Source: Spartobacteria bacterium
GTDB lineage: Bacteria > Verrucomicrobiota > Verrucomicrobiia > Chthoniobacterales > UBA10450
Direction of reading: 5' to 3'
Assembly (NCBI GenBank): GCA_003134785.1
Contig: PLCN01000025.1
Location: forward strand, 1 to 64,000
Length of the DNA stretch: 64,000 bases
The position numbers were made by a program, and so were the translations under genes. This document shows, piece by piece, positions 32,790 through 48,352 of this stretch (the stretch's first letter is position 1; each line of letters opens with the position of its first letter). The notes under the pieces were generated by a model that ran no database searches, was not told the origin of the DNA, and saw only the letters and a list, made by a program, of their open reading frames with translations.

Positions 32790-32899
32790 CCTAAACCCAC
32801 CTTATGCCGAATTACGACATTCGACAACTAACGGGTCATTCGTCAGATTTTCGATGCAACGCGGCACGCGCTTTCGGAATCCTGCTCGGCCATTATTTC

Positions 32900-33129
32900 T
32901 CTTCTGCAATTGAACGTTAGACGCTTGCTCGCGAATACTTTCGGAGTTGAGCGTTGGATGTTGAACGTTCGCTGGAAGCGCATGGTGCTGGACAATCGGC
33001 CTTCGCAAATCGAACTTCGCCAATCCGCTTGTCCACGTAATTCGGTTTTGAAAATCGTTAATCGCAAATCTAAAATCGAAAATGTCGGCGCGTCCCCGTA
33101 GTTCAAAACATAGAACGAGGGTCTCCTAA
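32900..33129 (+). pseudogene. tRNA-Arg fragment A (33092-33129) with upstream repeat block
   Basis: 33092-33129 matches the 5' half of the tRNA-Arg at 48139, from the acceptor strand through the anticodon loop (GTCCCCGTAGTTC... to TCTCCTAA), with a few changes. It then continues TTCGAC, the bases that also occur just after the intact tRNA. The upstream block is mosaic: 32900-32975 resembles the type seen at 40.0 kb, and 32980-33091 the type at 42.9 kb. No gene is seen in 32790-33370. Confidence 0.8.
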
Positions 33130-33199
33130 TTCGACTAGACCACTTCGTGAATCGACCGGCCACGCTGGCCCGCCCTTTTTTCTTCAGCACTTCGTGCGT

Positions 33200-33238
33200 T
33201 CATTCATCGAAATTCCCTTAGAGAAGTTCGATGAATGA
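33200..33238. repeat. 12-bp inverted repeat upstream of sugar dehydrogenase gene
   Basis: TCATTCATCGAA and TTCGATGAATGA pair perfectly around a 15-base loop, 130 bases before the start codon at 33371. It could be an operator or the terminator-like end of a lost gene. Confidence 0.55.
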
Positions 33239-33370
33239 CAAACTTGCCGAAATTCAGCTGTTCCGCAGCGTGCGGGTGTGATTCGTGCTCTAAGAAAGCG
33301 CACTTGGCCGGAGCGATCCCGCAGCAAGTTTGGTCGCAACTTCGCCACACGTTCAAGGTTTAAGAGACGC

Positions 33371-35860
33371 ATGCAACACGGAATCCGCACGGGTTTGTTA
33401 TCCCTTTTGGCGTTCTTGATTCTCCCTGTGAGCCTGACACGCGGAGCGACAACCATCGTCCGCGTCGCCTCTGGCAATGAATTAATCTTTTCGCCGAAGA
33501 GTGTCACGGTCCAGCCCGGCGACACCGTGAAGTGGATTTGGGACGGCAGTAGTCACGATGTGAAATCGGGCAGCCCGGGACAGCCAACCAATCTCTTTGG
33601 CACTCAGATCCAACCAAGCGGCGCCACCTATTCATACAAGTTCACTACGCCGGGAAATTTCCCCTACTTTTGTAGTCCGCACGGCGCGTGCTGCGGAATG
33701 GTCGGCACAATCACCGTCGCGGGCACGCCGCCTGCGACTCCCACGCCGACACCCACCCCCACTCCGGCGCCGCAGCCGACTCCATTACTTGCTCGCGTGC
33801 CCACGGGACCAATCAAGATCGAACTGCAAACAGTCGCCACCGGATTGATCGCACCGATCGACATGGTTTCGGCGAACGATGGCACTGGACGCCTTTTCAT
33901 TGTCCAGCAAAGCGGTCAGATCGTCCTTCTAAAGAATGGTCAACTCTCAGCTACCCCGTTTCTGGACGTCTCGAACCGGCTGGTGACACTGAGCACGTCT
34001 TACGACGAACGGGGCTTGCTCGGCGTGGCCTTTCATCCTGGCTTTAACGATTCGTCCAGCCCAGGCTATGGGAAGCTCTACACCTTCACAAATGAGCCGG
34101 TCACTGGTTCGGCCGACTTCACCGTCCCCGACACCTCGGCGTTTAATAACCAGGTGGTAATCGCAGAATGGAAGGTTTCAGCCAACAATGCCGATGCGGT
34201 CGACCCATCCACGCGCCGTGAAGTGTTGCGCATCGATCATCCGCAGTCTAACCACAACGGCGGTAAGATGGCATTTCGCGCCAGCGACCATTACCTTTAC
34301 TTCTCGATTGGCGATGGAGGACTCGCCGATGATGTCGGTCCTGGCCATAATCCAACGACCGGGAACGGACAGGACATCACAACCGTCTTGGGCAAGATAT
34401 TGCGGATTGATCCACTCGATCCTGCGCTGACCTCAAGCAGCGCTGATCCAATCAGTGCGAACGGAAAATATCGTATTCCTGTCTCCAATCCCTTTGTGGT
34501 CGTATCTAATCCGGCGAACCGAGCAGCAGAGATCTACGCCTACGGTTTGCGCAATGTCTTTCGCTTCAGCTTCGATCCCGTGACGGACAAGCTAATGGCC
34601 GGAGACGTCGGGCAGGACCACGTCGAGGAAATCGATATCATTGAAGCCGGCAAAAACTATGGCTGGAACCGGAAGGAAGGAACCTTCCTCTTCGATCCGG
34701 CGACCGGTGGAGACTCTTTTGATGCATCGCCCGATCCATCCCTGACCGATCCGATCGCTGAGTACAGCCACGATGACGGCATCGCAGTCATTGGGGGATT
34801 TGTCTACCGCGGCTCCGCTCTCCCGGCATTGACGGGCAAGTACGTCTTCGGCGACCTCGCTGCGCCCGGGACGGCAAGTGGCCGACTCTTTTATCTGGAT
34901 GACCTTGCCTCCGGTCCAATCAAGGAATTGAGCATCGGCACTCCCGCTCGCTCGCTTGGTCAGTTGCTCAAAGGCTGGGGCGAGGACGCACAAGGTGAAA
35001 TTTATGTTCTTGGCGATACGAATATTGGCCCCGGAGCAGCAAGCGGCAGCGTGTTTAAAGTTGTGCCGATACCTGTAGCACCATCCTTATTGAATCTATC
35101 AACCCGCTTGAGCGTTCAGACCGGCGACAATGTGCTGATAGGTGGCTTTATCATTACAGGCAGTTCTTCGAAAAACGTTTTATTGCGCGGGATGGGACCT
35201 TCGCTGGCCTCCAGTGGGCAACCAGTTGCTGGCCGCTTGAGCGATCCGACGCTTACGCTCTTTGACGGCGCTGGGACGGCGCTGCTCTCAAATGATGATT
35301 GGATGAACGGCACCCAGAAGCAGGAAATCATCGACAGCGGACTTGCGCCTGGTGATCCGAAGGAAGCGGCGATGATAGCCTTGCTCGAGCCGGGGAATTA
35401 TACAGCGATTCTGAGCGGCAAGAATGGTGCGACCGGGGTGGGCCTCTTGGAGCTTTACGATCTCGCGCAAAGCGCTCCGGCAAATGCGGTCAACATTTCG
35501 ACGCGAGGACTCGTCCAAACCGGCGATAACGTGATGATCGGCGGTTTCATCGTGGGCGGATCGAAAACCTCGCGCATCCTGGTCCGCGCGATAGGGCCGG
35601 AGTTGACGGCGGCCGGCGTCCCTGGCGCTCTTCAGGATCCGACACTCGAACTCCACGATGGCTCCGGCACAACAATAGCCACTAACGATAACTGGCGCTC
35701 AACCCAGCAAGCCGACATTGCCGCGACAATGTTAGCGCCGACCGACGATCGCGAATCAGCAATTCTCTCGACTCTCGCGCCTGGGAATTACACTGCGATC
35801 CTCCGCGGCAGCGGTGGATTGACCGGCGTGGCGCTATTCGAAGCTTACCAGTTACCCTAA
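33371..35860 (+). CDS. Secreted cupredoxin-sugar dehydrogenase fusion with paired C-terminal domains
   Basis: 829 aa from the ATG at 33371, which opens a signal peptide (LLSLLAFLILPVSLTRG). Residues about 27-115 are a plastocyanin-like cupredoxin with likely copper ligands in SSHDV and YFCSPHGACCGM. A Thr-Pro linker follows, then a PQQ-dependent glucose/sorbosone dehydrogenase-type propeller (about 150-570: DERGLLGVAFHPGF, HNGGKMAF, YGLRNVFRFSFDP, GKNYGWNRKEG). Two copies of the recurring domain end the protein. The fusion suggests direct electron transfer from PQQ to copper outside the cell; that is inference. Confidence 0.9.
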   Translation: MQHGIRTGLLSLLAFLILPVSLTRGATTIVRVASGNELIFSPKSVTVQPGDTVKWIWDGSSHDVKSGSPGQPTNLFGTQIQPSGATYSYKFTTPGNFPYFCSPHGACCGMVGTITVAGTPPATPTPTPTPTPAPQPTPLLARVPTGPIKIELQTVATGLIAPIDMVSANDGTGRLFIVQQSGQIVLLKNGQLSATPFLDVSNRLVTLSTSYDERGLLGVAFHPGFNDSSSPGYGKLYTFTNEPVTGSADFTVPDTSAFNNQVVIAEWKVSANNADAVDPSTRREVLRIDHPQSNHNGGKMAFRASDHYLYFSIGDGGLADDVGPGHNPTTGNGQDITTVLGKILRIDPLDPALTSSSADPISANGKYRIPVSNPFVVVSNPANRAAEIYAYGLRNVFRFSFDPVTDKLMAGDVGQDHVEEIDIIEAGKNYGWNRKEGTFLFDPATGGDSFDASPDPSLTDPIAEYSHDDGIAVIGGFVYRGSALPALTGKYVFGDLAAPGTASGRLFYLDDLASGPIKELSIGTPARSLGQLLKGWGEDAQGEIYVLGDTNIGPGAASGSVFKVVPIPVAPSLLNLSTRLSVQTGDNVLIGGFIITGSSSKNVLLRGMGPSLASSGQPVAGRLSDPTLTLFDGAGTALLSNDDWMNGTQKQEIIDSGLAPGDPKEAAMIALLEPGNYTAILSGKNGATGVGLLELYDLAQSAPANAVNISTRGLVQTGDNVMIGGFIVGGSKTSRILVRAIGPELTAAGVPGALQDPTLELHDGSGTTIATNDNWRSTQQADIAATMLAPTDDRESAILSTLAPGNYTAILRGSGGLTGVALFEAYQLP

Positions 35861-35953
35861 CAGCGGCTGCTAAAAGCACTGCAGCGAACTCCGAAGAGGT
35901 TCGGCGGGAGTGACTCGAGTTCGCACGTCACTGGCCAGTGCAATAACTCGGTC

Positions 35954-35971
35954 CCAGTTCACGTGAACTGG
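35954..35971. repeat. Perfect 18-bp palindrome
   Basis: CCAGTTCACGTGAACTGG is a perfect self-complementary sequence between the sugar dehydrogenase gene and fragment B. It may be a regulator site or the stem of a terminator. Confidence 0.5.
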
Positions 35972-35986
35972 TCCTGTGCAACTGTA

Positions 35987-36073
35987 CTATTGCGCTTCGG
36001 CCTTTTCGTTGTCCCGCGCCTTGTCTTTGTTCCAGAGATGGAAGGTGTAGGTGAAAACGACGTAATTGAGAAT
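35987..36073 (-). pseudogene. C-terminal gene fragment of unknown protein
   Basis: The minus strand reads ILNYVVFTYTFHLWNKDKAR and onward to a stop at 35987. Alternating strands and charged tail look like the end of a real protein, but upstream the frame runs into the repeat block of fragment B. Probably a remnant cut by the insertion there. Confidence 0.45.
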
Positions 36074-36095
36074 GTCACGGCGAGAAGGGTCAGAG

Positions 36096-36295
36096 TATTG
36101 ACACACATTCCTCGGGGCGAGTAGCAGGCACCTTGGAGCTAGCGATGGCAGTAGGATGCCGGTTGTTCGCGAAATACCTTCAAGTTCGCTTGCACGGACG
36201 CCAGCCGAATGGTGCTGGACAATCGGCAATCCCAAATCGAACTTCGTTAATCCGCTTGTCCAAGTAGTTCAACGGATAGAACGAGGGTTTCCTAA
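36096..36295 (+). pseudogene. tRNA-Arg fragment B (36258-36295) with upstream repeat block
   Basis: The upstream block (36096-36257) is nearly the same as 42786-42980. The tRNA part runs from a shortened acceptor strand (GTCCAAGTAGTTC) to TTTCCTAA, followed by GGCGAAAC as in fragment C. The acceptor junction suggests a deletion between two GTCC words of the block. From 36296 to 36525 no gene is seen; GGCATCCGGGTGACACA lies at 36417, the same 122-base offset as in fragment C. Confidence 0.8.
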
Positions 36296-36525
36296 GGCGA
36301 AACTGACGTTTTATCACACTTGATCAGCAGTCGTCTAAATTGCGCAATCGGCTGTTTGTTAGTGGATTACGCCGGAACTCTGTCAGCGCATCTCATCTGG
36401 AATCTGCCCATTTTTAGGCATCCGGGTGACACAGATTTTCCTGCTGGGCTTCGGCTCAGAAGGTGTGAAAAACCTGTTCAACACGCTCGACAATCAGCGA
36501 AGCAGTTTTCAATCTGACGTAATCA

Positions 36526-37689
36526 ATGCAAAGATCCCTTGACCTTCGCCTTAAGGACTTCGTTCCCGTTCCTGCAGGACTGCAAACTGCAAATTCAAGT
36601 GTCGCGGCTAGCATAGACGTCAGATTAGCGGACCTGTTTCACCATTACTGGCGGGACGCGCATTACCAGGCTGTTCCAAGCCCAAATCCAATTGCTCAGT
36701 GGTACATTTCCCTCCTAACGCCGGACGCGGCCTTTCGTTTTCGCGGTCCAAGTGTCGGGACCCACAAGGAGCCGCGGATTGCTCACCACAACTTGCTCGG
36801 CAAAGCGTTTTGCCGGTGGTTTCTGTCTGCCCATTGCGGAATTACCTATTTCGCGCACATGGAACACGTTCTAAAAGGGACGATTGATCCGATGTTTGGA
36901 TCGATTCAAGTAACCCGGGTAGGAGCCGGTGATACCCCTGACTACCTTTGCGCAGAGAACGCTCAAACACTTTGTCTCGCGGAAGCGAAAGGCACCGCGG
37001 CATCTATCTCATTCACCAATGCAGAATTCGGGCGATGGCGTCAACAGTTTGACCGTGTCGAGTTCCGAGATGCTAATGGGGTGCTCAGAGTGTTAAAGGG
37101 CTACATAGTGGCAACCCGTTTTGTGAGCGAGGATCATTCCGAAAATGTGCGCTCTGCCCTCTATGCCGAGGATCCTCGCACTCGAGGTGACGTAAGCTTG
37201 AATGTTCAACAAGAGGAAGGATTCCATCTTGCTCGTGCGACCATCGCTGGGCATTACGGCGTCGTGTTAGACAAGCTTCGCCTTCCGCTCTTGGCCACCG
37301 CGCTGCGGCAAGGCACGACTCTTCCAGCCGACTTGCCTATTCGCATGGCAATTTGGGAATGTTTAGTAGCTCCGGTTCAACAATCCCTCTTTGTCGGTGG
37401 ATATTTTGATCCACCTGATTGGCCCGCTGGCCAATGGCCGTACTTCGATTTCGTTGAACGCGTTGCCAGCCGCTTATGCTTATCCGCGGTTGGGTTGACA
37501 TTTTTTGGGCTCGAAATCGGGGCTTTCCAGACGATTCGCAACGCCTCGCTATCCGGTCGAGCGACGCTATCTGATGTGACTCCGCTCAGATTCGAAGCGG
37601 TTGCTCCCACGGAACTTAGCGTTTTTCGTGACGGAACAATCCTAGGTCCCGTCGATTTTTTCCGGTTTCGCGAGATACAGGAATTTTGA
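36526..37689 (+). CDS. Predicted PD-(D/E)XK-type nuclease, unknown family
   Basis: 387 aa, soluble, no recognised family. Residues about 135-165 read GDTPDYLCAENAQTLCLAEA then KG: an Asp followed after about 14 residues by E-x-K on a strand, the core of the PD-(D/E)XK nuclease fold. An upstream Glu/His helix (HNLLGKAFCRWFLS) could complete the site. The rest is mixed alpha/beta. It stands alone on the plus strand in module B-C of the tRNA array, with no methylase or helicase beside it. An orphan defence or mobile-element nuclease is possible; the assignment rests on motif reading only. Confidence 0.6.
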   Translation: MQRSLDLRLKDFVPVPAGLQTANSSVAASIDVRLADLFHHYWRDAHYQAVPSPNPIAQWYISLLTPDAAFRFRGPSVGTHKEPRIAHHNLLGKAFCRWFLSAHCGITYFAHMEHVLKGTIDPMFGSIQVTRVGAGDTPDYLCAENAQTLCLAEAKGTAASISFTNAEFGRWRQQFDRVEFRDANGVLRVLKGYIVATRFVSEDHSENVRSALYAEDPRTRGDVSLNVQQEEGFHLARATIAGHYGVVLDKLRLPLLATALRQGTTLPADLPIRMAIWECLVAPVQQSLFVGGYFDPPDWPAGQWPYFDFVERVASRLCLSAVGLTFFGLEIGAFQTIRNASLSGRATLSDVTPLRFEAVAPTELSVFRDGTILGPVDFFRFREIQEF

Positions 37690-37849
37690 ACGCGTTTTTC
37701 TTAGAGCTAACAAGTCCATCTCCCAATCTGAGGGTAGCCACAGACACGGTATTTCGAAACGTTCATTATGTGTCACACAAGACGGCGTGAGCTGACAAAC
37801 AACGAGCAATCCGTTGCCAAAATCACTGGTCGCGCGCGCCGATTCGTAA

Positions 37850-39817
37850 CTACTGCAGATTGTAAACTTCCACCAAACCAACACCAGTGCTGTTGTTCTT
37901 GCCGCGCACAATTGCGGTGTAGTTACCATGAGGAAGAGTTGCGATAAGGGCCGATTCCAAATCATTGGTTGGTGGAATAGTTGTCGCGCGGATGTCAGCT
38001 TCCTGTGACTGGCCGGTCTGATCGTTGATCTTCCAGTTGTCGTTGGTCTCAATCGTAGTTCCACTTCCGTCGTGCAATTCCAAGGTTGGATCGCCCAATG
38101 CGCCTGCTACGGGAACCGATGGTCCAAGTCCACGCACAATCACCGTGGCACTGCCGCCGCCGCTTCCTCCGCCCACGATAAATCCCCCGATCATGACGTT
38201 ATCACCCGTGTCCACAAATCCACGCGTGCTGATGTTCGCCAGCTTGGAGTTCGCGCCTTGCGCCAGATCGTAAACCTCGACTAAGCCCACGCCCGTCCCT
38301 CCATTCTTACCCGCAAGGATTGCGGTGTAGTTGCCAGGAGCAAGAGTTGCGATAAGGGCCGATTCCAAATCGTGGGCAGGTGGAATAGTGGTGACGCGGA
38401 TGTCAGCTTCCTGTGATTGGCCAGTCTGATCGTTGATTTTCCAGTTGTCGTTCGTGATTACCGTGCCGTCCGGCTGGTGTAGTTCCAAAGTCGGATCAGC
38501 TAACCGGCCTGGAATGGGGGTGCCATTCACATTGAGCGAAGGACCCATCCCCCGAATAATAACCTTCTTTGGGTCGGTTCCGGTGATGATAAAACCACCG
38601 ATCAGCACTTGGTCACCCGTAAGAACGCGCATCCGCGTGGAAATGTTGATCAAGGACTGCCCGACGTAGAGTTCCGCACTCGAGAGAGAACCGGTGCCGT
38701 TATAACCTCCTGTAACAAGCACCTTGCCATTGGCCAGCGATGTCGCCGTGTGAAGAGAGCGTCCGGTGGCGAGGCTGCCGGTCGCCATCCAGGTCCCGCT
38801 CGTCGGATCGTACATTTCCGCGTTCGCCAGAGAGCTGTTGGTGCCGCTAACTCCGCCTGCGACAAGCACGTTGCCGTTGGGCAGCAACGTCGCCGTGCCA
38901 CTATCGCGTGCGGTGGCGAGGCTGCCGGTCGCCGTCCACGTCCCGCTCGCCGGATCGTACAGTTCCGCACTCGCGAGCTCGACGCTGTTGTTGTTGAAGC
39001 TGTTGTTGTTAGAACCTCCAGCAACAAGCACCTTGCCGTTGGGCAGCAACGTTGCCGTGTGAAGATAGCGTGCGGTGGCGAGGCTGCCGGTCGCCGTCCA
39101 GGTCCCACTCGCCGGATCGTACAGTTCCGCGCTCACGAGAATGCTGCTGAAGTTACGCCCTCCTGCGACAAGCACCTTGCCGTTGGGCAGCAACGTTGCC
39201 GTGTGATAATAGCGTGCGGTCGCGAGGCTGCCGGTGGCCGTCCAGCTCCCGCTCGCCGAATCGTACAGCTCCGCGCTTGCGAGAGAGGCTGTGCCGAATA
39301 CATAACCGCCTGCGACAAGCACCTTGCCGTTGGGCAACAACGTTGCCGTATGACTATCGCGTGCGGTGGCAAGGCTGCCGGTCGCCGTCCACGTCCCGCT
39401 CGCCGGATCATACAGTTCCGCGCTCGCGAGCTCGAAGCTGTTGTTATTAGAACCTCCAGCAACAAGCACCTTGCCGTTGGGCAGCAACGTCGCAGTGTGA
39501 AGATAGCGTGCGGTGGCAAGGCTGCCGGTCGCCGTCCACGTCCCACTCGCCGGATCGTACAGTTCCGTGCTTGCCAGAGAGTTGTTGGTGCCGCGATTAT
39601 AACCTCCTGCGACAAGCACCTTACCGTTGCGCAGAAACGTAGCCGTGTGGTAATAGCGTGCGGTGGCGAGGCTGCCGGTGTTTTCAAAAACAACGGAAGC
39701 GCTCGCGCACGGCTGCACCAGCACCGCGCCTAAAAACAACAGCGGGAACGCAACCTGCCAAGCAAGAGCCGACCTAGCGGACGGAAGACCGGCCCCGAGG
39801 GGATGCAATATTTTCAT
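37850..39817 (-). CDS. Secreted Kelch-repeat protein with paired C-terminal domains
   Basis: 655 aa. Signal peptide (about 18-40, ending ASA). Seven Kelch repeats (about 45-400) of the form GSLATARYLHTATLLPNGKV then LVAGG and ELYDPASGTWTAT, almost identical to each other at DNA level. Two copies of the recurring domain end the protein (about 405-655). The near-identity of repeats points to recent repeat expansion or gene conversion. A seven-bladed propeller for binding is likely. Close paralogue of the gene at 40514. Confidence 0.9.
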   Translation of the reverse strand: MKILHPLGAGLPSARSALAWQVAFPLLFLGAVLVQPCASASVVFENTGSLATARYYHTATFLRNGKVLVAGGYNRGTNNSLASTELYDPASGTWTATGSLATARYLHTATLLPNGKVLVAGGSNNNSFELASAELYDPASGTWTATGSLATARDSHTATLLPNGKVLVAGGYVFGTASLASAELYDSASGSWTATGSLATARYYHTATLLPNGKVLVAGGRNFSSILVSAELYDPASGTWTATGSLATARYLHTATLLPNGKVLVAGGSNNNSFNNNSVELASAELYDPASGTWTATGSLATARDSGTATLLPNGNVLVAGGVSGTNSSLANAEMYDPTSGTWMATGSLATGRSLHTATSLANGKVLVTGGYNGTGSLSSAELYVGQSLINISTRMRVLTGDQVLIGGFIITGTDPKKVIIRGMGPSLNVNGTPIPGRLADPTLELHQPDGTVITNDNWKINDQTGQSQEADIRVTTIPPAHDLESALIATLAPGNYTAILAGKNGGTGVGLVEVYDLAQGANSKLANISTRGFVDTGDNVMIGGFIVGGGSGGGSATVIVRGLGPSVPVAGALGDPTLELHDGSGTTIETNDNWKINDQTGQSQEADIRATTIPPTNDLESALIATLPHGNYTAIVRGKNNSTGVGLVEVYNLQ

Positions 39818-39928
39818 CGTTTAGGCCTGCACGCATAACATCTAACACTTAAGTATACCGACAAGTTCAACGGTTATCCAGCGTATTAATCGACAAGAGC
39901 CGCACGGCGCTAAATAAAACACAAAGGC

Positions 39929-40143
39929 GGATATGGGGTCGCGTCTCAATATTTTGATATTTCGGCAGAGACTCGGGAGTTAAATCTTGGCCTCTGCCCC
40001 GCGCTTCGGCTCCTCTTCATCTTGTCTCCTTTTTCTGCAATTGGACGTTGGACGCCTGCTCGCGAATACTTTCGGAGTTGAATGTTGGACGTTGGCTTCC
40101 GACAGTGTCCCGTAGTTCAGCGGATAGAACGAGGGTTTCCTAA
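39929..40143 (+). pseudogene. tRNA-Arg fragment C (40107-40143) with upstream repeat block
   Basis: Block 39929-40106 matches the region directly upstream of the intact tRNA (GATATTTCGGCAGAG, CTGCAATTGGACGTTGGACG). The tRNA part has one C deleted in the acceptor strand (GTCCCGTAGTTC) and ends TTTCCTAA, followed by GGCGAAAC. GGCATCCGGGTGACACA occurs at 40265. No gene is supported in 39818-40513. Confidence 0.82.
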
Positions 40144-40513
40144 GGCGAAACGGGCCATTTTGCTGGTGTTCGATCCAGTCATCCGTCGTACGCAAAAAGC
40201 TGTAACGCCATCGATTGCCACTACTTTCGCGTCATCAGCATTAATCACGAATACGCTGATTTTCGGCATCCGGGTGACACAACGTGCGACACAAACGTGC
40301 GACATGCCAGACCACCATCCGTAAAGTTCACTCTCTGCTCTGCCTGAAAAGATCAGCGAAGGGCTCGCCTTTGAGTCGGACAGTGCAAACACTCATTCGG
40401 TCAAGTTCCCTAACCCACCTCTTAGTGCCGCCAGTGTAGCTAAGGTGAATGGCTTCGAGACGTGATGGCACTAGAGGAGAAGCGGACGATCTTTGTCTGC
40501 CGATGATTCGTAT

Positions 40514-42490
40514 CTACTGTAGGTTGTAAACTTCTACCAACGCGACTCCGGTCGTGCTGTTCTTCCCGCGCACAATTGCGGTGTAATTGTCGGGCACTAA
40601 TGTGGCGACGATGGCCGATTCCAAATCGTTGGTAGGAGCAACAGTCGTCGCCTCAATCTCAGATTGCTGGCTGCTGCCATCAGCCCGCGTCTTCCAGTCG
40701 TCGTTGGTTACAATCATAGTGCCACTGGCGTTGTGCAGTTCAAGGGTTGGATCAGCTAATCGGCCTGGAACTGGGGTGCCATTCACACTGAGTGATGGGC
40801 CAATTGCGCGCACAATCACTTTGGCAGAGCCGCCGCCGGTTCCGCCTCCCACGATAAACCCACCGATCATGACGTTGTCGCCGGTATCGACAAAACCACG
40901 GGAACTGATATTGGCTAGCTGGGAATTCGCGCCTTGCGCCAGATCGTAGACCTCGACTAACCCGACGCCCGTTCCTCCGTTCTTACCCGCAAGGATTGCG
41001 GTGTAGTTGCCGGGGGTAAGCGTCGTCACTATTGCAGATTCTAAGTCGTTTAACGGCGGAATTGTCGTGGCGCGGATGTCAGTTTCCTGTGATTGACCGG
41101 TCTGATCGTTGATCTTCCAGTTGTCGTTCGTAATGACCGTGCCGTCCGATTGATGGAGCTCCAGAGTCGGATCGGACAAAGTAACCCCGACACCATTGAG
41201 CGAAGGACCCATTCCCCGAATGATTACTTTCTTTGGATCAGTCCCAGTGACGATAAAGCCACCGATGAGAACTTTGTCATCGGCAAGAACACGCATGCGC
41301 GTGGAAATGTTAAGTAGCTGGGCTGGAATAGGTGGTGGCCCACCGTAAAGTTCCGCGCTCGCGAGAATGCTACCGTTGTTGTCATTCCCTCCTGCCATAA
41401 GCACCTCGCCGTCGGATAGCAACGTCGCCGTGTGAACAACGCGTGCGGTCGCGAGGCTCCCGGTCGCAGTCCAGCTCCCGCTCGCCGGATCGTAGAGTTC
41501 CGCGCTCGTGAGAGCGCTACCGTTGTTGTCCACTCCTCCTGCGACGAGCACCTTGCCGTCAGACAACAACGTCGCTCCGGGAATATAGCGTCCCGTAGCG
41601 AGGCTGTTTGTCGCGGTCCAGGTCTCGCTCCCCGGATCGAACAGTTCCGCAATCGCGAGGGCGCCGCTGCTGCCACCGCCTCCCGCGACAAGCACCTTGC
41701 CATTGGGCAGTAAGGTAGCCGTGTGAAAATGACGTGCGGTCCCGAGGCTCCCGGTCGCAGTCCAGGTCCCGCTCGCCGGATCGTATATTTCCGTGCTCGC
41801 GGAGAAGCCACTATTGTCCACTCCTCCTGCGACGAGCACCTTCCCGTTCTGCAGCAACGTCGCCTTGTGCTCTCGGCGTGCAGTGGAGAGGTCACCGGTC
41901 GCGGTCCAGGTCCCGCTCGCGGGATCGTACAGTTCCGCGCTCGCAAGTACGGCGGTGGTGCCGCTCTGACCTCCCGCGACAAGCACCTTGCCATTGAGGA
42001 GCAACGTCGCCGTATATAGACGGCGCGCCGTGCCGAGGCTCCCAGTCGCAGTCCAAGTCTGGCTCGCCGGATCGTACAGTTCCGCGCTCGCGAGATCGCC
42101 GCTGGTGCTTTCGTCGATCACTCCTGCTGCAACGAGCACTTGGCCGTTCTGCAGCAACGTCGCCGAGTGATAAAAGCGTGCGGCAGCGAGGCTCCCGGTC
42201 GCGGCCCAGGTCCCACTCGCCGGATCGTACAGTTCCGCGCTCGCGAGAACGCCGCTAGTGCCGCCAATGCCTGCTGCGACAAGCACCTTGCCGTTGGGCA
42301 GCAACGTTGCCGTATGCTCATAGCGCGCATCAGCGAGAGTGCCGGTGTCAGTGAAAACACCGGAAGCGCCCGCGCGCGGCTGCACGAGCACCAGCCCCGC
42401 GCCAAGAGAAAGCATCGGGAACGCGACCCGCCGCGCAAGAATTGAGGTAGCCAACAGAAGACTGCCAGTAAGCGAATGCAATTTTTTCAT
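40514..42490 (-). CDS. Secreted Kelch-repeat protein with paired C-terminal domains
   Basis: 658 aa. Signal peptide region about 8-42 (ending RAGASG). Seven Kelch repeats (GSLGTARHFHTATLLPNGKV type), more diverged from each other than in the paralogue at 37850. Then two copies of the recurring domain (about 405-658), the first with VLADDKVLIGGFIVTGTDPK and the second with GFVDTGDNVMIGGFIVGGG. The two Kelch genes sit in neighbouring modules of the tRNA array, so they may have duplicated along with it. Confidence 0.9.
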   Translation of the reverse strand: MKKLHSLTGSLLLATSILARRVAFPMLSLGAGLVLVQPRAGASGVFTDTGTLADARYEHTATLLPNGKVLVAAGIGGTSGVLASAELYDPASGTWAATGSLAAARFYHSATLLQNGQVLVAAGVIDESTSGDLASAELYDPASQTWTATGSLGTARRLYTATLLLNGKVLVAGGQSGTTAVLASAELYDPASGTWTATGDLSTARREHKATLLQNGKVLVAGGVDNSGFSASTEIYDPASGTWTATGSLGTARHFHTATLLPNGKVLVAGGGGSSGALAIAELFDPGSETWTATNSLATGRYIPGATLLSDGKVLVAGGVDNNGSALTSAELYDPASGSWTATGSLATARVVHTATLLSDGEVLMAGGNDNNGSILASAELYGGPPPIPAQLLNISTRMRVLADDKVLIGGFIVTGTDPKKVIIRGMGPSLNGVGVTLSDPTLELHQSDGTVITNDNWKINDQTGQSQETDIRATTIPPLNDLESAIVTTLTPGNYTAILAGKNGGTGVGLVEVYDLAQGANSQLANISSRGFVDTGDNVMIGGFIVGGGTGGGSAKVIVRAIGPSLSVNGTPVPGRLADPTLELHNASGTMIVTNDDWKTRADGSSQQSEIEATTVAPTNDLESAIVATLVPDNYTAIVRGKNSTTGVALVEVYNLQ

Positions 42491-42493
42491 AAT

Positions 42494-42643
42494 TTAGGCT
42501 CGCATGTTTTTCCGCAGCGACGCCGCTGCCGCCCGGGGTCGCAAATCAATCGGTGAAGAGTTCGACCCGTTCGGCACTACCAGCAGTGCCAGAATGAACA
42601 GCGAAAGAGTGCCAGCCCTTATGTGCAAGGTGTAGTTTTTCAT
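42494..42643 (-). CDS. Possible 49-residue signal-peptide-like ORF
   Basis: The minus strand reads MKNYTLHIRAGTLSLFILAL and continues LLVVPNG, a signal-peptide-like start with a GGAAAA just upstream, ending three bases before the Kelch gene ATG. It may be a leader, a remnant of another secreted protein, or chance. The surrounding gap 42491-43129 otherwise holds only repeat block D. Confidence 0.25.
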   Translation of the reverse strand: MKNYTLHIRAGTLSLFILALLVVPNGSNSSPIDLRPRAAAASLRKNMRA

Positions 42644-42785
42644 TTTTCCGATAGCCCTTCATTGACATAAAGCGGAAATGGCCACGAGATGGGGCCAGAT
42701 ATTTTCCGCGAATCATCTTCTCGCCTTTCTTCAAATTGGCGAGCCGCTGAACCTCTGGGCGCCGTCGTCTGGTTGGGTCGGAGAT

Positions 42786-43070
42786 CATAAGGGGTCAGAG
42801 CCAAGTGGCCAGGTATTGACACACATTCCTCGCGGCGAGTAGCAGGCACCTTGGAGCTAGCGATGGCAGTCGGATGCGGGTTGTTCGCGAAATACCTCGA
42901 AGTTCGCTTGCGCGAACGCCAGCCGAATGGTGGTGGACAATCGGCAAGCGCAAATCGAACTTCGCCAATCCGCTTGTCCACGTAATTCGGTTTTGCAAAT
43001 CGGAAATCACAAATCTAAAATCGCAAATGTCGGCCGTCCCCGTAGTTCAACGGATAGAACGAGGGTTTCC
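42786..43070 (+). pseudogene. tRNA-Arg fragment D (43036-43070) with upstream repeat block
   Basis: Block 42786-43035 has the same left part as block B (GTATTGACACACATTCC, GGCACCTTGGAGCTAGCGAT) and the same right part as block A (GTAATTCGGTTTTG to AATGTCGGC). The tRNA portion is intact from GTCCCCG to TTTCC, then breaks within the anticodon into ATCTCCGCCC. Confidence 0.82.
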
Positions 43071-43129
43071 ATCTCCGCCCTAAAAGGTCATTAAATTACC
43101 TCGTAAATTGGATTGCGCTTTGTATAAGA

Positions 43130-43254
43130 ATGGCGGCCAAGAAGAAAGTGAAGTACTGGGAAATCATCGCGGATCGTCTGAGCAAATCAGGCTGGAGCTG
43201 GGGCTGCGTCGCGGTGATCAATGCAGCAGGGCGTGTTGAAATGGTCGCCCGCTG
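43130..43254 (+). pseudogene. N-terminal fragment of a small conserved protein
   Basis: MAAKKKVKYWEIIADRLSKS then GWSWGCVAVINAAGRV matches the start of a small widespread protein (KYWEIIAD...GWSWGCVS type) usually about 70 residues long. After AGRV the sequence becomes the antisense of the SOD fragment, so the 3' half is lost. Function of the family is unknown. Confidence 0.6.
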
Positions 43255-43528
43255 AACTTGCATCGACTGCCCTGCAGGCGCCAAACTCGTGCACATGAAA
43301 TCCGTGCTTGCCTGGAGTGAGTCCGTGAACGTCGGCATCAACACGTACGCCATCTTCGACTTCGGTGAACGTCACTACACCGGCTGCGTTATTGCCCTCC
43401 GTGGGATGAAGGACGGCGACGGCTCTTAATGGATCCTCGGTATCTTTTGTAGACTGCCCGGCGACGACAGGAATAGAAAAAAATGCCAAGATCAGTGAGA
43501 GCCTGCGCGCTATTACCGATAATTTCAT
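43187..43528 (-). pseudogene. Cu/Zn superoxide dismutase, N-terminal fragment
   Basis: Signal peptide start at 43528 (MKLSVIARRLSLILAFFSIP), then the SOD start VLHPTEGNNAAGVVTFTEV and the copper-ligand region KHGFHVHEFGACR, then SSAGDHFN. From about 43236 the frame runs into the antisense of another gene fragment. The rest of the enzyme, including remaining metal ligands and the active-site Arg, is missing. Not functional. Confidence 0.8.
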
Positions 43529-43755
43529 GTTTGCATTCCGTATGCGCGCTGTTCGACCGTGCACGCACGCTTATTCGCCTGAACCTATGTTCTATGCCTT
43601 ATTTTCTTAGACCCGTTTGTCACCGCTGATGTTCAGTTGTGGAGAAAGAAGTTGCCGTTGATTGGGCTTTCGACAACAACGACCGATTGATCCGAATCTT
43701 TATTGAGAAAAGGGACTGCCACTTAGTGAGTCCGGCGCTGAATCGGTAGCCGGGG

Positions 43756-44010
43756 TCAGGCGCTGCCATCGCGCGGTAACGTAGGCGGCAGCCCGTAGAA
43801 GATCACCGGAATAATGCCGAGGGCAACCGCTGCACAGATTGTCAGCGTCGTAACGATCGGATTGATCTTCGGCGCAGCTTGCCCTTCGCTGATACTGAGA
43901 TGCCGGTGTCTTTCACCAACGCCAACGGTGATCGAAGCGAACAATATGATGACCGCCACGGCTTCACAGGCAATGAAACGCAGAAATTTCTTTCGCTGGT
44001 GTACTCTCAT
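43756..44010 (-). CDS. Small two-pass membrane protein
   Basis: 84 aa from the ATG at 44010. Basic start (MRVHQRKKFLRF), hydrophobic segments at about 13-31 and 55-76. No family recognised. It lies 45 bases downstream of the HPr-like gene on the same strand and may share its transcript. Confidence 0.45.
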   Translation of the reverse strand: MRVHQRKKFLRFIACEAVAVIILFASITVGVGERHRHLSISEGQAAPKINPIVTTLTICAAVALGIIPVIFYGLPPTLPRDGSA

Positions 44011-44055
44011 CCTGATCCCAGGGACACGCTCCTCTTGCGGCACACATGCGTAAGT

Positions 44056-44358
44056 TTACGCAGGCGTCCGTTTTTCCTGAACCGGCTCATCGAGCGCGAC
44101 CGCCACGGAGGAGACGAATACCTGTTCGATTGCTTGCGCTGCCTCCCGTTCGTCCTCGCCACTCGCCTCCACGTTAAGGGTAGTTCCCATCGTAGCACAC
44201 AACGCGATTACGCTTAGGATGCTGCGGATATCCGCGATCTTCCCACCGTCTCTTAGGAGAATCGTCGAACGGAACTGCTGTCCTGTCCGCACTAATTTCG
44301 CCGCGTGGCGAAGATGCAAGCCCTCCGTCCAATGGACCATCACGGCGGCTCGCTTCAT
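44056..44358 (-). CDS. HPr-family phosphocarrier-like protein
   Basis: 100 aa. GLHLRHAAKLV holds His15 at the usual HPr phosphorylation site (the family has GLHARPA; the Pro is His here). RSILSVIALCATMGTTLNVE corresponds to the Ser46 region, followed by SGEDEREAAQAI. An orphan in this module: no EI, EII or HPr kinase is nearby. Length slightly above the usual 85-90 because of a C-terminal tail. Probably regulatory rather than a sugar-PTS component; that is inference. Confidence 0.8.
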   Translation of the reverse strand: MKRAAVMVHWTEGLHLRHAAKLVRTGQQFRSTILLRDGGKIADIRSILSVIALCATMGTTLNVEASGEDEREAAQAIEQVFVSSVAVALDEPVQEKRTPA

Positions 44359-44630
44359 TCCTTTCTTTGACTGGAGTCGGTGGCTTTTCGTTCAGTTTTT
44401 GTCTGCGGTTGGTTTTTTTTCAAAAGCGAAACGTTATTGTACGACACGTTCAAAAATTGCCGGAAAAGGCGAAGACACTCGCGACATCGACCGGAATTGA
44501 GAGAACTAGCGCGACGAGACAATGGTGTTAACCGAGTAGGAAAAGCCGCGCGCGAAGCACGCCTGCTTCTATTCGAAGGCGCACCGGTACAAATTGTCGA
44601 AAGCTGCCTCTCGATATGGGGTCCTCTCGA

Positions 44631-44815
44631 TATGGGGTTGCGTCTAAATAGTTTGATATTTCGGCAGAGGCTTTGGAGTTTAAATCTTGAGCTCGCCCCC
44701 GCGCGCTTCGGCTCCTCCAGCCCGTGTTTCCTTTTCTGCAATTGGACGTTGGACGTTGGACGTTTGCTTTCGACAGCGTCCCCGTAGGTCAACGGATAAA
44801 ACGAGGGTTTCCTAA
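44631..44815 (+). pseudogene. tRNA-Arg fragment E (44778-44815) with upstream repeat block
   Basis: Block 44631-44777 is close to the block upstream of the intact tRNA. The tRNA part has GTAGGTC for GTAGTTC and ATAAAAC for ATAGAAC, ends TTTCCTAA and continues TTCGA, as fragment A does. Between the HPr gene start and this block (44360-44630) no gene is supported. Confidence 0.82.
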
Positions 44816-44840
44816 TTCGAAAGGACCCCCACAGGGAAGG

Positions 44841-45170
44841 TCAAGTCTCGATCTCCCCACTATCGGGAGTTATCCGAAGTGCGAAGCAATCAGCCTGGCG
44901 AGGAAACAAATTATGTTCAGCGTCAGGACTCACCTGTTCGGGGGCGCACATTAGATTATTATCCCAGGGTTTTCCCTGGAACGACATGATGAATGGGCCG
45001 GCGACTCTAACAACAGCGAGCAACCCATGCTCCTTACGCAGCTTGACGAGCCAATTGCGTTGCGTGTCGGAGAGGGCTTGCGCTGCGTTGCCGCTTTTGA
45101 GCGCCGCGTCGTAGAAGTCGAGCATGATTTGGACGGTGCTTTCGTCACTAACGGGCCAGAGGGTCATCAA
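44841..45170 (-). pseudogene. C-terminal fragment of a CHAT-domain protein
   Basis: TLWPVSDESTVQIMLDFYDA and KSGNAAQALSDTQRN match the last part of CHAT (caspase-like) domains, where SLWpV.D..T...M..FY and AL..AQ are typical. The catalytic His/Cys region upstream is missing. After about 44950 the sequence no longer looks conserved. CHAT proteins act in bacterial defence and cell-death systems; this one is a remnant. Confidence 0.6.
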
Positions 45171-45383
45171 AAGATTTTGGGTGCCGGCTTGAACGCCGGC
45201 CTCCCGCTACGACGCCATGTCTGTCGGGGATAGGTTGACATGAACTGCCTGAGGATTGCCGACGATACAAATAAATCGCACCAAGCGTACAAGTGTGAAA
45301 TTCGTCATCTTGCTGCGGATTAGGCCCGCGCGCGAAAAAAATTCTTTGTCGAATCGGGAAGGAATAATGTCTACACTTTGACG

Positions 45384-47837
45384 ATGTCCACTGACACACC
45401 CTCTGATTTTGAGATGGAGATCGCGTACGTGCTCTTCATCGACGTGGTGGGCTTCACGCGGCTGCTGATCAACGAACAGGGCGATGTACTAAACTCGCTG
45501 AACGGAGTCATTCGCAAAACCGCGGCTTTTCAAAGCGCCGAGTCGGCCGGGAAACTGGTGCGGCTTCCGGCCGGAGACGGAATGGCGCTGGCGTTTCTCA
45601 CTCAGCCGGAAGCGCCAGTAAAGTGTGCGCTTGAGATCAGTGAAGCGTTAAAAAACGATCCCCGGTTGCAGGTGCGCATGGGGATCCATAGTGGGCCGGT
45701 TAGCGCCATAACAGACGTGAACGATCGCCGCATCGTCGCCGGGACCGGCATTAACATGGCACAACGGGTAATGGACTGCGGCGATGCCGGACACATCCTG
45801 CTTTCAAGGCGGATCGCAGACGACCTCGCTCAATATACCCGTTGGACTCCGCACTTGCATGACCTGGGCGTGGCAGAAGTAAAGCACGGCGTCAAAATCG
45901 ACTTGGTCAATCTTTACACCGCCGTCGCCGGTAATCCGGCACCACCCCAGAAAATCAGAGCTGCGGAAACACCAAAAGCCACCGAGGTGGCGACTGACGG
46001 TGAGCAAGCTCGCGCCGGCAACCGCAAACGTGCGCTAACTCTGTCAGCGATCCTCTTGCTGAGTCTCCTAGCGATAAGCCTGTTTCTTGTTCTTAATCGC
46101 ACCTCTCCGAAATCGGCTACTGCTCCCGCGACTACTCTCGTCCCCGTCGAGACAACCAACAGAAAGTCTGTTGCGGTGCTACCATTCGAAAATTTGAGCG
46201 GTGATCCGGATAACGGGTTTTTCACCGATGGCGTTCAGGATGAAATCCGCACCGACCTAGCGAAGGTAGCTGATCTCAAAGTCATCAGCCGCACAAGCGT
46301 GATGCAATACAAGACGACAACGGGGCGCAATCTGCCGGACATCGCGCAGGCGCTGAAAGTGGCACACATTCTGGAAGGCAGTGTGCAACGCGCGTCGAAT
46401 CGAGTGCGCGTTGCCGTCCAGCTCATCGACGCTCGGGCCGATACACAACTTTGGGCGGAGCACTACGATCGTCCGCTCGACGATGTCTTTGCAATCCAGA
46501 GTGAAATTGCAAAGGCGATCGTCGAACAGCTACGCGCCAGGATTTCCCCCAGTGAAAAGGCCGCGATCGAAAAACCGCCGACCAACAATCTCGCCGCCTA
46601 CGATCTGTATAACCAGGCTAAAGCGCTGATCGCCACCAGTGCTTTTGGGGCGCGGTTCCGGGGGGACCTCTCACAAGCGGCGCATCTGCTGGATGAGGCG
46701 GTGCTTCGAGACCCGCTTTTCATGGCAGCCTATTGCGAATTAGCCGGCGTGCATGACTATATTTATTTTTATGGAATCGACCCTACGCCAGCCCGACTAG
46801 CGCTGGCCGAAGCAGCGGTCACGAGTGCGCTGAAGTTGGGTCCTGAGAGCGGCGAGGCGCACTTGACGAAGGCGCAACATCTGTATTGCGGCTATTTCGA
46901 CTATGATGGAGCTCGGGCAGAAATTGCCATTGCGCGCCGGACTTTACGGGATGACCCGCGAGTTCTCGAATTGACTGGCTACATCGACCGTCGCCAGGGC
47001 CGGCAGAAGGAAGGATTGGAAAATCTCGAACGAGCGAGCGAGCTCGATCCACGGAACTTCGAGATCCTGCAGGAGATCGCGCTTAGTTATGGTGCGTTTC
47101 GCCGTTATCCCGAGATGGCAGCAATCCTCGATCGTGCTCTCGCGATCGTTCCGGCCGAAGTGGCCCTAGACACGAGAGCAGCGCGCGCCCAAGTAAATCT
47201 GGATTGGCAGGCCGATACTCGCCCGCTGCACGCCGTGATGGAAGAGAGTCTTGCGAAAAATGCTGCTGCGGCAGAAGGCGTCGCGGACAATTGGTTATAC
47301 CTCGCTTTATGCGAGCGCGACGCAGTGTCCGCTAACCGCGCGCTTGCGGCCTTGGGAAATAATACGTTCGGTCCGGATGCAATTCTCTTTAGTCATACGT
47401 TCGGCGAAGGCCTTGTCGCGCGCATGGAAGGGAAGACCGCGGCGGCACAGGTCGCTTTCCTGGCCGCTCGCGCACAGCAGGTAGAGGCTATCCGATCGCA
47501 AGGTGAGTACGCCCCTGCACTCTGCGTCCTCGGCATGATTGACGCCGCACTCGGGCGAAAGGAAGATGCATTGCAGGAGGGCCGGCGCGCCGTGGAGCTT
47601 CTCCCGCTCGAGCGAGACGCGTTGAACGGGCTTCGCGTACGCACGTTCCTCGCCGTGATCTATGCGTGGACCGGAGAGAAGGATCTGGCTTGTCAACAAC
47701 TTGACAGCACACTCCAGATTCCTGCATCCGCGAGCTATGGTGAGTTACGCTTGCATCCGTACTGGGATCCGCTGCGCGGCGATCCTTGTTTTGAAAAAAT
47801 TGTAGCTAGCCTCGCCCCGAAAAAGGATGGGAACTAA
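45384..47837 (+). CDS. Class III cyclase fused to TolB-like and TPR domains
   Basis: 817 aa from the ATG at 45384 (a TTG two codons upstream is less likely). Same plan as the gene at 25419: cyclase domain (VLFIDVVGFTRLL, LPAGDGMALAF, GINMAQRVMDCGDAGHILLS), one membrane helix (about 215-235), TolB-N-like part (KSVAVLPFENLSGDPDNGFF, DGVQDEIRTDLAKV) and about ten TPR-like repeats, ending PYWDPLRGDPCFEKIVASLA. It lies in the last module of the tRNA array, so one copy of this family has been mobile or duplicated. Confidence 0.9.
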   Translation: MSTDTPSDFEMEIAYVLFIDVVGFTRLLINEQGDVLNSLNGVIRKTAAFQSAESAGKLVRLPAGDGMALAFLTQPEAPVKCALEISEALKNDPRLQVRMGIHSGPVSAITDVNDRRIVAGTGINMAQRVMDCGDAGHILLSRRIADDLAQYTRWTPHLHDLGVAEVKHGVKIDLVNLYTAVAGNPAPPQKIRAAETPKATEVATDGEQARAGNRKRALTLSAILLLSLLAISLFLVLNRTSPKSATAPATTLVPVETTNRKSVAVLPFENLSGDPDNGFFTDGVQDEIRTDLAKVADLKVISRTSVMQYKTTTGRNLPDIAQALKVAHILEGSVQRASNRVRVAVQLIDARADTQLWAEHYDRPLDDVFAIQSEIAKAIVEQLRARISPSEKAAIEKPPTNNLAAYDLYNQAKALIATSAFGARFRGDLSQAAHLLDEAVLRDPLFMAAYCELAGVHDYIYFYGIDPTPARLALAEAAVTSALKLGPESGEAHLTKAQHLYCGYFDYDGARAEIAIARRTLRDDPRVLELTGYIDRRQGRQKEGLENLERASELDPRNFEILQEIALSYGAFRRYPEMAAILDRALAIVPAEVALDTRAARAQVNLDWQADTRPLHAVMEESLAKNAAAAEGVADNWLYLALCERDAVSANRALAALGNNTFGPDAILFSHTFGEGLVARMEGKTAAAQVAFLAARAQQVEAIRSQGEYAPALCVLGMIDAALGRKEDALQEGRRAVELLPLERDALNGLRVRTFLAVIYAWTGEKDLACQQLDSTLQIPASASYGELRLHPYWDPLRGDPCFEKIVASLAPKKDGN

Positions 47838-47983
47838 GAAGGGGTGTGGCGGATGGAATCAATTCCTAATTCCAAAGTGAGTTACACATATGCGCGCTAC
47901 ATGGTTTACACTTATGCATCATCTTTTATTAACGATAACCGGAAAATGCGGTGAGGGGCGGCACCGGTCGGTAAGCAATGATG

Positions 47984-48138
47984 GAGTCGCGTCTAAATAT
48001 TTTGATATTTCGGCAGAGGCTTTGGAGTTTAAATCTTGACCTCGCCCCCGCGCTTCGGCTCCTCCAGCCCGTGTTTCCTTTTCTGCAATTGGACGTTGGA
48101 CGTTGGACGTTGAATGTTGGACGTTTGCTTTCGACAGC
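47984..48138 (+). repeat. Upstream repeat block of the intact tRNA-Arg
   Basis: Contains GATATTTCGGCAGAGGC, a GC-rich stretch, and TTGGACG tandem copies (48089-48123) before TTTGCTTTCGACAGC. The same block precedes fragments C and E with different TTGGACG copy numbers. It should hold the tRNA promoter. Confidence 0.75.
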
Positions 48139-48210
48139 GTCCCCGTAGTTCAACGGATAGAACGAGGGTTTCCTAAACCTTAAATGTGGGTTCAATTCCC
48201 GCCGGGGACA
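48139..48210 (+). tRNA. tRNA-Arg (anticodon CCU)
   Basis: 72 nt. Acceptor GTCCCCG pairs with CGGGGAC (203-209), discriminator A. D stem GTTC/GAAC with GG in the loop. Anticodon stem AGGGT/ACCTT around TTCCTAA, anticodon CCT at 48172-48174. Four-base variable loop. T stem GTGGG/CCCGC with loop TTCAATT. CCA is not encoded. It reads AGG codons, which should be rare in this GC-rich genome. Confidence 0.95.
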
Positions 48211-48327
48211 TAATTCGACGCGCCGTGTGGTGTGACAACGCCAAGGTGGTTCATAGCTTTGGTTCGATTGATTCGCTCACGCCCGTTCGCTCACCCTGAC
48301 GGGCTTCGTCCATGTCGCGCCGCGCCC

Positions 48328-48352
48328 GCGGGCTCCATTCCCGCCGGGGGAT
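48328..48352 (+). pseudogene. Degenerate 3' half of tRNA-Arg
   Basis: GCGGG-CTCCATT-CCCGC keeps a fully paired T stem and seven-base loop, followed by CGGGGGA in place of CGGGGAC. The bases after it (TATTCGAACGCG) resemble those after the intact tRNA (TAATTCGACGCG). No gene is seen in 48211-48502. Confidence 0.7.

Follow-up and report, generated by a model that had tools for sequence, protein, structure and literature searches.

Among the 3919 islands at tRNA genes (tDNA islands) catalogued in Islander, 5′ fragments of the target occur in 159, and tandems of three or more number four; acceptance in that catalogue depends on an integrase in the candidate island, one per tandem member, and a length of at least 2 kb (PMC4383910). 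In archaea, pTN3-like integrases use the 5′ half of a tRNA (PMC8371274). At the ssrA gene of Dehalococcoides, islands form tandem arrays in which some members lack a recombinase and were possibly mobilized in trans (PMC3146451). Here we describe an array at a tRNA-Arg(CCT) gene, located in a 64,000-nt stretch of DNA (the window, to which positions refer unless a contig is named) from a 4.39-Mb genome of soil Verrucomicrobia (Spartobacteria; G000). Five displaced 5′ halves of this gene precede the intact copy, each bordering a small module. The array very probably arose by tandem accretion of integrative elements, through a clade of tyrosine integrases that cross over in the anticodon loop and replace the 5′ half of their target. 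The basis for this is the fragments and the way they point, a left end recurring across genera whose start coincides with the break, a complete integrase-bearing element in a related genome (G017), the same anatomy at other tRNAs, and members of the genus that are free of modules.

The sole intact tRNA found in the window by ARAGORN and Rfam is tRNA-Arg(CCT), and a BLAST comparison of this gene with the window yielded the five 5′ halves, with E-values from 2e-7 to 4e-15:

48139–48210, + strand: intact tRNA-Arg(CCT), the rebuilt target gene (ARAGORN; Rfam RF00005, 66 bits)
33092–33129, + strand: 5′ half no. 1, outermost; tRNA positions 1–38, 89% (BLAST)
36258–36295, + strand: 5′ half no. 2, joined to a shortened block B; positions 1–38, 95% (BLAST)
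40107–40143, + strand: 5′ half no. 3; positions 1–38 minus one base (deletion), 97% (BLAST)
43036–43070, + strand: 5′ half no. 4; positions 1–35, 100% over 35 nt (BLAST)
44778–44815, + strand: 5′ half no. 5; positions 1–38, 95% (BLAST)

All five lie upstream of the intact gene and on its strand, as the initial annotation of this DNA had described. Four of them break at tRNA position 38 (...TTTCCTAA) and the copy at 43036 breaks at position 35. A pattern search of the whole genome, allowing up to three mismatches, found copies of the 5′ half at this locus only; since the genome has none elsewhere, we ruled out chance matches and dispersed repeats as the source of the fragments, and the scatter away from this tRNA that the initial annotation had named as evidence against insertion is absent. 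Half no. 2 has a hybrid start, GTCCAAGTA, after an apparent deletion: in a comparison of 36206–36270 with 42924–43070, about 48 nt are missing between GTCCACGTA and GTCCCCGTA, which apparently joined this half to block B, one of two upstream blocks listed below.

The 3′ half that had been counted as part of the array shrinks to the last ~13–20 nt of the gene: 13 exact nucleotides at 48337–48349 (20 nt at 90%), spanning the T arm to the acceptor end. Because this fragment has no anticodon-loop break and follows the tRNA at the same spacing in six or more relatives, we consider it a separate, older feature outside the process. The stretch that includes it (48261–48350, about 50 nt behind the tRNA) forms a second copy of the tRNA 3′ end (GGTTCGATT...ATTCCCGCCGGGG), with the T loop interrupted by about 65–75 nt, and is conserved in at least six relatives from three genera.

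The DNA following each 5′ half constitutes a module. Modules 1, 2, 3 and 5 measure 2.9–3.8 kb and module 4 measures 1.7 kb:

33130–36257, + strand: module 1, with a plastocyanin-like and GSDH protein (33278–35860; Pfam PF07995, PF00127)
36296–40106, + strand: module 2, with a 387-aa protein without a family (36526–37689, +) and a kelch-repeat protein (37850–39817, −)
36296–36434, + strand: conserved left end of module 2, with one GGGTGACACA (model R1 E=1.8e-19, the sequence being part of the model; nhmmer E=4e-25)
40144–43035, + strand: module 3, with a kelch-repeat protein (40514–42490, −; Pfam Kelch families)
40144–40297, + strand: conserved left end of module 3, GGGTGACACAACGTGCGACACAA (model R1 E=6e-28, likewise part of the model)
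43071–44777, + strand: module 4, a probable remnant, with a truncated Cu/Zn superoxide dismutase-like open reading frame (ORF) (43187–43564, −; PF00080 partial, positions 2–54 of 133)
44816–48138, + strand: module 5, with an 819-aa guanylate-cyclase-domain and TPR protein (45378–47837; PF00211)

The cargo had been called unrelated. Most modules indeed share no homology; the kelch genes of modules 2 and 3, however, are homologous, with 74% DNA identity.

Modules 2 and 3 have a left end in common with modules in other genera. In an alignment across relatives it extends over about 155 nt, begins directly after CCTAA and closes with one or two GGGTGACACAA repeats. Model R1 of this left end, built from nine modules with the tRNA sequence excluded, gave 46 matches in 29 of 83 family genomes and in 9 of 14 genera. 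When we read the loci, a tRNA-Arg(CCT) 5′ half stood 0–3 nt ahead of 31 of the 33 left ends whose start is intact; nine of these had gone into the model. An exact-pattern scan of one genome per species matched only metagenome-assembled genomes (MAGs) of Verrucomicrobia (Spartobacteria/Chthoniobacterales), and viral contigs gave no match with the exact pattern.

Two variants of this arrangement were seen. In G012, G034, G099 and G090 (L049, L050, L052, L128, L136), the left end lies downstream of the intact tRNA and inverted, together with its 5′ half where visible; an inversion that carried the tRNA along could explain the cases of G012 and G034. In G007, a solo left end without a 5′ half (L035:11766–11912) is located within a 9.2-kb module and is probably a lost border between two modules.

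A complete element of 5.5 kb, situated between a tRNA-Arg(CCT) 5′ half and the intact tRNA, is found in G017. Its order is 5′ half, left end with two GGGTGACACAA, cargo, tyrosine integrase, two more GGGTGACACAA and intact tRNA, and the integrase (381 aa, PF00589, E=2e-17) is transcribed away from the tRNA. Judged by sequence, the GGGTGACACAA pairs at both ends are as expected for arm sites and give the element what looks like a lambda-type organization. Relatives of the G017 integrase, with about 30–50% identity, occupy the same position at many tRNAs, in divergent orientation upstream of tRNAs for Thr, Met, Ser, Pro, Asn, Ala, Val, Phe, Leu and Arg. At two Thr(TGT) loci, two Met loci and one Arg(TCT) locus, displaced 5′ halves of 39–40 nt (95–100%) lie 4.7–14.4 kb upstream; counting G017, six integrase loci have a 39–40-nt 5′ half at the far end. 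By their anatomy, these six loci and the window array use the tRNA 5′ half as att site and give the rebuilt tRNA upstream DNA from the element. In the integrase tree, most Thr, Met and Arg(TCT) enzymes fall into supported groups and close relatives sit at different tRNAs. Phage integrases are only distantly related (at most 28% among the matches listed). The mechanism, which the initial annotation had treated as open and perhaps new, can thus be assigned: one tyrosine-integrase clade leaves 5′ halves at several tRNAs, and there are precedents (PMC4383910, PMC8371274).

The window genome has integrases of this kind at its Thr(TGT), Thr(CGT) and Arg(TCG) tRNAs. A survey of up to 20 kb upstream of each of its other tRNAs revealed one clear single 5′ half, for tRNA-Ala(CGC) (L207:16154–16194, positions 1–41, 98%, 3.4 kb upstream of the tRNA at L207:19636), 5′ halves that were weaker or shorter for Thr(TGT) and for one Met tRNA, and no second array in these stretches.

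Empty and occupied sites can be compared within the genus, for which we had eight genomes. G001–G006 have the intact tRNA alone, with no hidden older 5′ halves above the shuffled background, G007 has two displaced halves and G000 has five. With six of eight genomes devoid of modules, these are not conserved as one block, the pattern that the initial annotation had set against its own proposal. The gene at 30579–32789 adjoins the outermost half on its outer side in both G000 and G007 (window 30579–32855 is homologous to L035:16623–18888 of G007), and the surroundings on the other side of the tRNA are homologous between the two. In another genus pair, the DNA upstream of the intact tRNA of G090 aligns to the DNA upstream of the displaced half of G034 (75% over 297 nt). 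Toxin–antitoxin-like genes that several relatives have upstream of the tRNA were recognized only by eye and not used as evidence. Taken together, the left end, the G017 element and the empty and occupied sites give good support to the scenario proposed earlier, in which elements entered the anticodon loop one after another and each brought its own 5′ half with new upstream DNA.

In such a process, the genome's only tRNA-Arg(CCT) gene would be the target of repeated site-specific integration at its anticodon loop. The attP site of the incoming circle would consist of the right end of the element and a tRNA 5′ half, followed after the crossover point by the left end of the element. Strand exchange by a lambda-type tyrosine integrase near tRNA positions 32–38 (TTCCTAA) would attach the 3′ half in the chromosome to the 5′ half and upstream DNA supplied by the element. 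The former 5′ half would be pushed upstream and would there mark the left edge (attL) of the module just gained; repeated events would yield the five stacked modules. The case for entry by this route is fairly direct for modules 2 and 3, and analogy suggests it for modules 1, 4 and 5. The integrases and right arms of the window modules would have been either lost or supplied in trans. The new upstream block would drive the rebuilt tRNA, a promoter role that we can only infer, since a promoter scan before the intact tRNA gave no + strand sigma-70-like site.

Each copy had been credited with an upstream block of its own; there are just two types, at three sites each, A before 40107, 44778 and 48139 and B before 33092, 36258 and 43036:

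32979–33091, + strand: block B before the outermost 5′ half, 90% to 42924–43035; junction with the conserved left flank (gene 30579–32789)
39933–40106, + strand: block A, right end of module 2, ~80% to 47981–48138
42813–43035, + strand: block B, right end of module 3
44632–44777, + strand: block A, right end of module 4, 89% to 47981–48176, 5′ half included
47981–48138, + strand: block A of the intact tRNA, right end of module 5; its leading ~95 nt occur at the three A sites only

Block B has only three copies in the genome. We rejected the possibility that the blocks are dispersed repeats throughout, since this applies to the TTGGACGTT part of block A alone. A dispersed repeat of the TTGGACGTTGGACG type covers 48076–48130, recurs at about 35 further places in the genome and is also present in relatives.

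Several observations weigh against serial 5′-half replacement as the origin of the array. No integrase is present among the window modules, a point on which the initial annotation was right, and modules 1, 4 and 5 have no recognizable conserved left end. The integrases of the window genome are all remote from the G017 enzyme (35% at best, at other tRNAs), the right-arm GGGTGACACAA pair occurs in no module except that of G017, and many other integrase loci, several of them short contigs, gave no displaced 5′ half. Among the genomes compared, no two strains differ by exactly one module. Further, right ends of types A and B combine freely with the left-end types instead of matching them, and block B doubles as the outermost flank. 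Neither would be expected from a simple stack of independent elements; homologous exchange between arrays may underlie both.

The scarcity of integrases extends beyond the window. Both borders are visible in 15 modules (five in the window, two in G007 and one each in G017, G025, G012, G023, G087, G073, G010 and G094), and in a search with the G017 integrase only G017's own contained one. The larger ORFs that were checked are cargo according to Pfam; cyclase–TPR cargo recurs in the window, G023, G087, G073, G010 and others, and kelch cargo in the window, G007 and G025. Between genera, right ends show no conservation, but they are common within groups, as in blocks A and B of the window or in the one right end, reaching up to the tRNA start, of four genus-g5 loci in four genomes. 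It is possible, though we put it forward tentatively as a narrower form of the accretion reading, that the modules, instead of being decayed islands, are small cassettes of one or two cargo genes, akin to cis-mobilizable elements (CIMEs), moved in trans by a G017-like integrase. Such movement would account for the single integrase in 15 modules, the conservation of left ends in integrase-less modules across genera, the cyclase–TPR cargo beside the left end in several genomes and the shared right end in genus g5. It sits less well with the missing right-arm repeats of the integrase-less modules and with most carrier genomes (mostly incomplete MAGs) having no integrase of such specificity, and neither a circle nor an exact single-module presence or absence was seen. 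Loss of integrase and right arms is favored because the right arms are missing, trans movement because the left ends are well kept and the cargo recurs; whether the integrase-less modules are remnants or elements mobilized in trans is therefore undecided. We are somewhat more doubtful still about a cassette system of soil Verrucomicrobia, in which integrase-less modules of one or two genes would move between genera and stack at tRNA-Arg(CCT) with a rare helper integrase; if real, it would be an analogue of the integron on a lambda-type site, by way of the conserved left end and the tRNA 5′ half.

Without any site-specific recombination, a segmental duplication or an unequal crossover that took in the tRNA and its upstream region could have duplicated blocks A and B as units together with a 5′ half, as is observed, and would explain the homologous cargo of modules 2 and 3. 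Yet most modules show no homology to each other, 38 bp offer little to homologous recombination, and versions with an integrase exist. Anticodon-loop breaks occur in many genera with the same 155-nt left end after them, and it is this conservation that makes duplication unlikely. An integron-like array of cassettes, with the left end supposed to act as a folded single-strand attC, agrees with tandem one- or two-gene modules and a conserved recombination-site sequence but is most improbable and was rejected, as the left end has no conserved fold (0 conserved base pairs in RNAalifold), the G017 integrase scores 54 bits against the integron integrase model TIGR02249 (cut-off 265), and the site is a tRNA gene with paired repeats resembling lambda-type arm sites.

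Replacement of the 5′ half by an integrase clade is of interest as the mode of only about 4% of catalogued tRNA islands. Arrays of mostly integrase-less modules are rejected by standard island finders, which demand an integrase; the conserved left end provides a handle for finding these modules in soil Verrucomicrobia and for testing trans movement of single genes.

Of the known systems, the 5′-fragment islands in Islander share with the window an intact tDNA with a co-oriented upstream 5′ fragment, the anticodon-loop site and tandem stacking (PMC4383910). They differ in the integrase, which the window modules lack and the G017 element has; modules 1, 2, 3 and 5 exceed the 2-kb limit, whereas module 4 (1.7 kb) falls below it. 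With pTN3-like integrases the array shares a working mode, the upstream DNA of the rebuilt tRNA coming from the element side, for which we claim no kinship; these are archaeal, and arrays of integrase-less modules are not described there (PMC8371274). CIMEs and the Dehalococcoides ssrA islands resemble it in that many islands stand in tandem at a single RNA gene, the target is repeated directly at the borders and some members have no recombinase, but the ssrA islands lie downstream, repeat the ssrA 3′ end and use a serine recombinase, in contrast to the upstream position, 5′ half and tyrosine integrase here (PMC3146451). A CIME has no recombinase of its own and is flanked by attL and attR; the window modules lack a recombinase and right arms, and among them just modules 2 and 3 have a left end that resembles attL. 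Integron cassette arrays likewise consist of tandem one- or two-gene modules with a common recombination-site sequence; the window differs from them in having no attC-like fold and no integron integrase, and in its target, a tRNA gene. A literature search for such arrays in Verrucomicrobia returned nothing relevant, and in the literature searched we did not find the combination of a 5′-half array, small integrase-less modules and a left end shared across genera. Since 5′-half replacement and integrase-less tandem islands are each already known, we regard the array as a variant of a known integration process and not as a new mechanism: a rarer variant, unusual because almost no stacked piece keeps an integrase.
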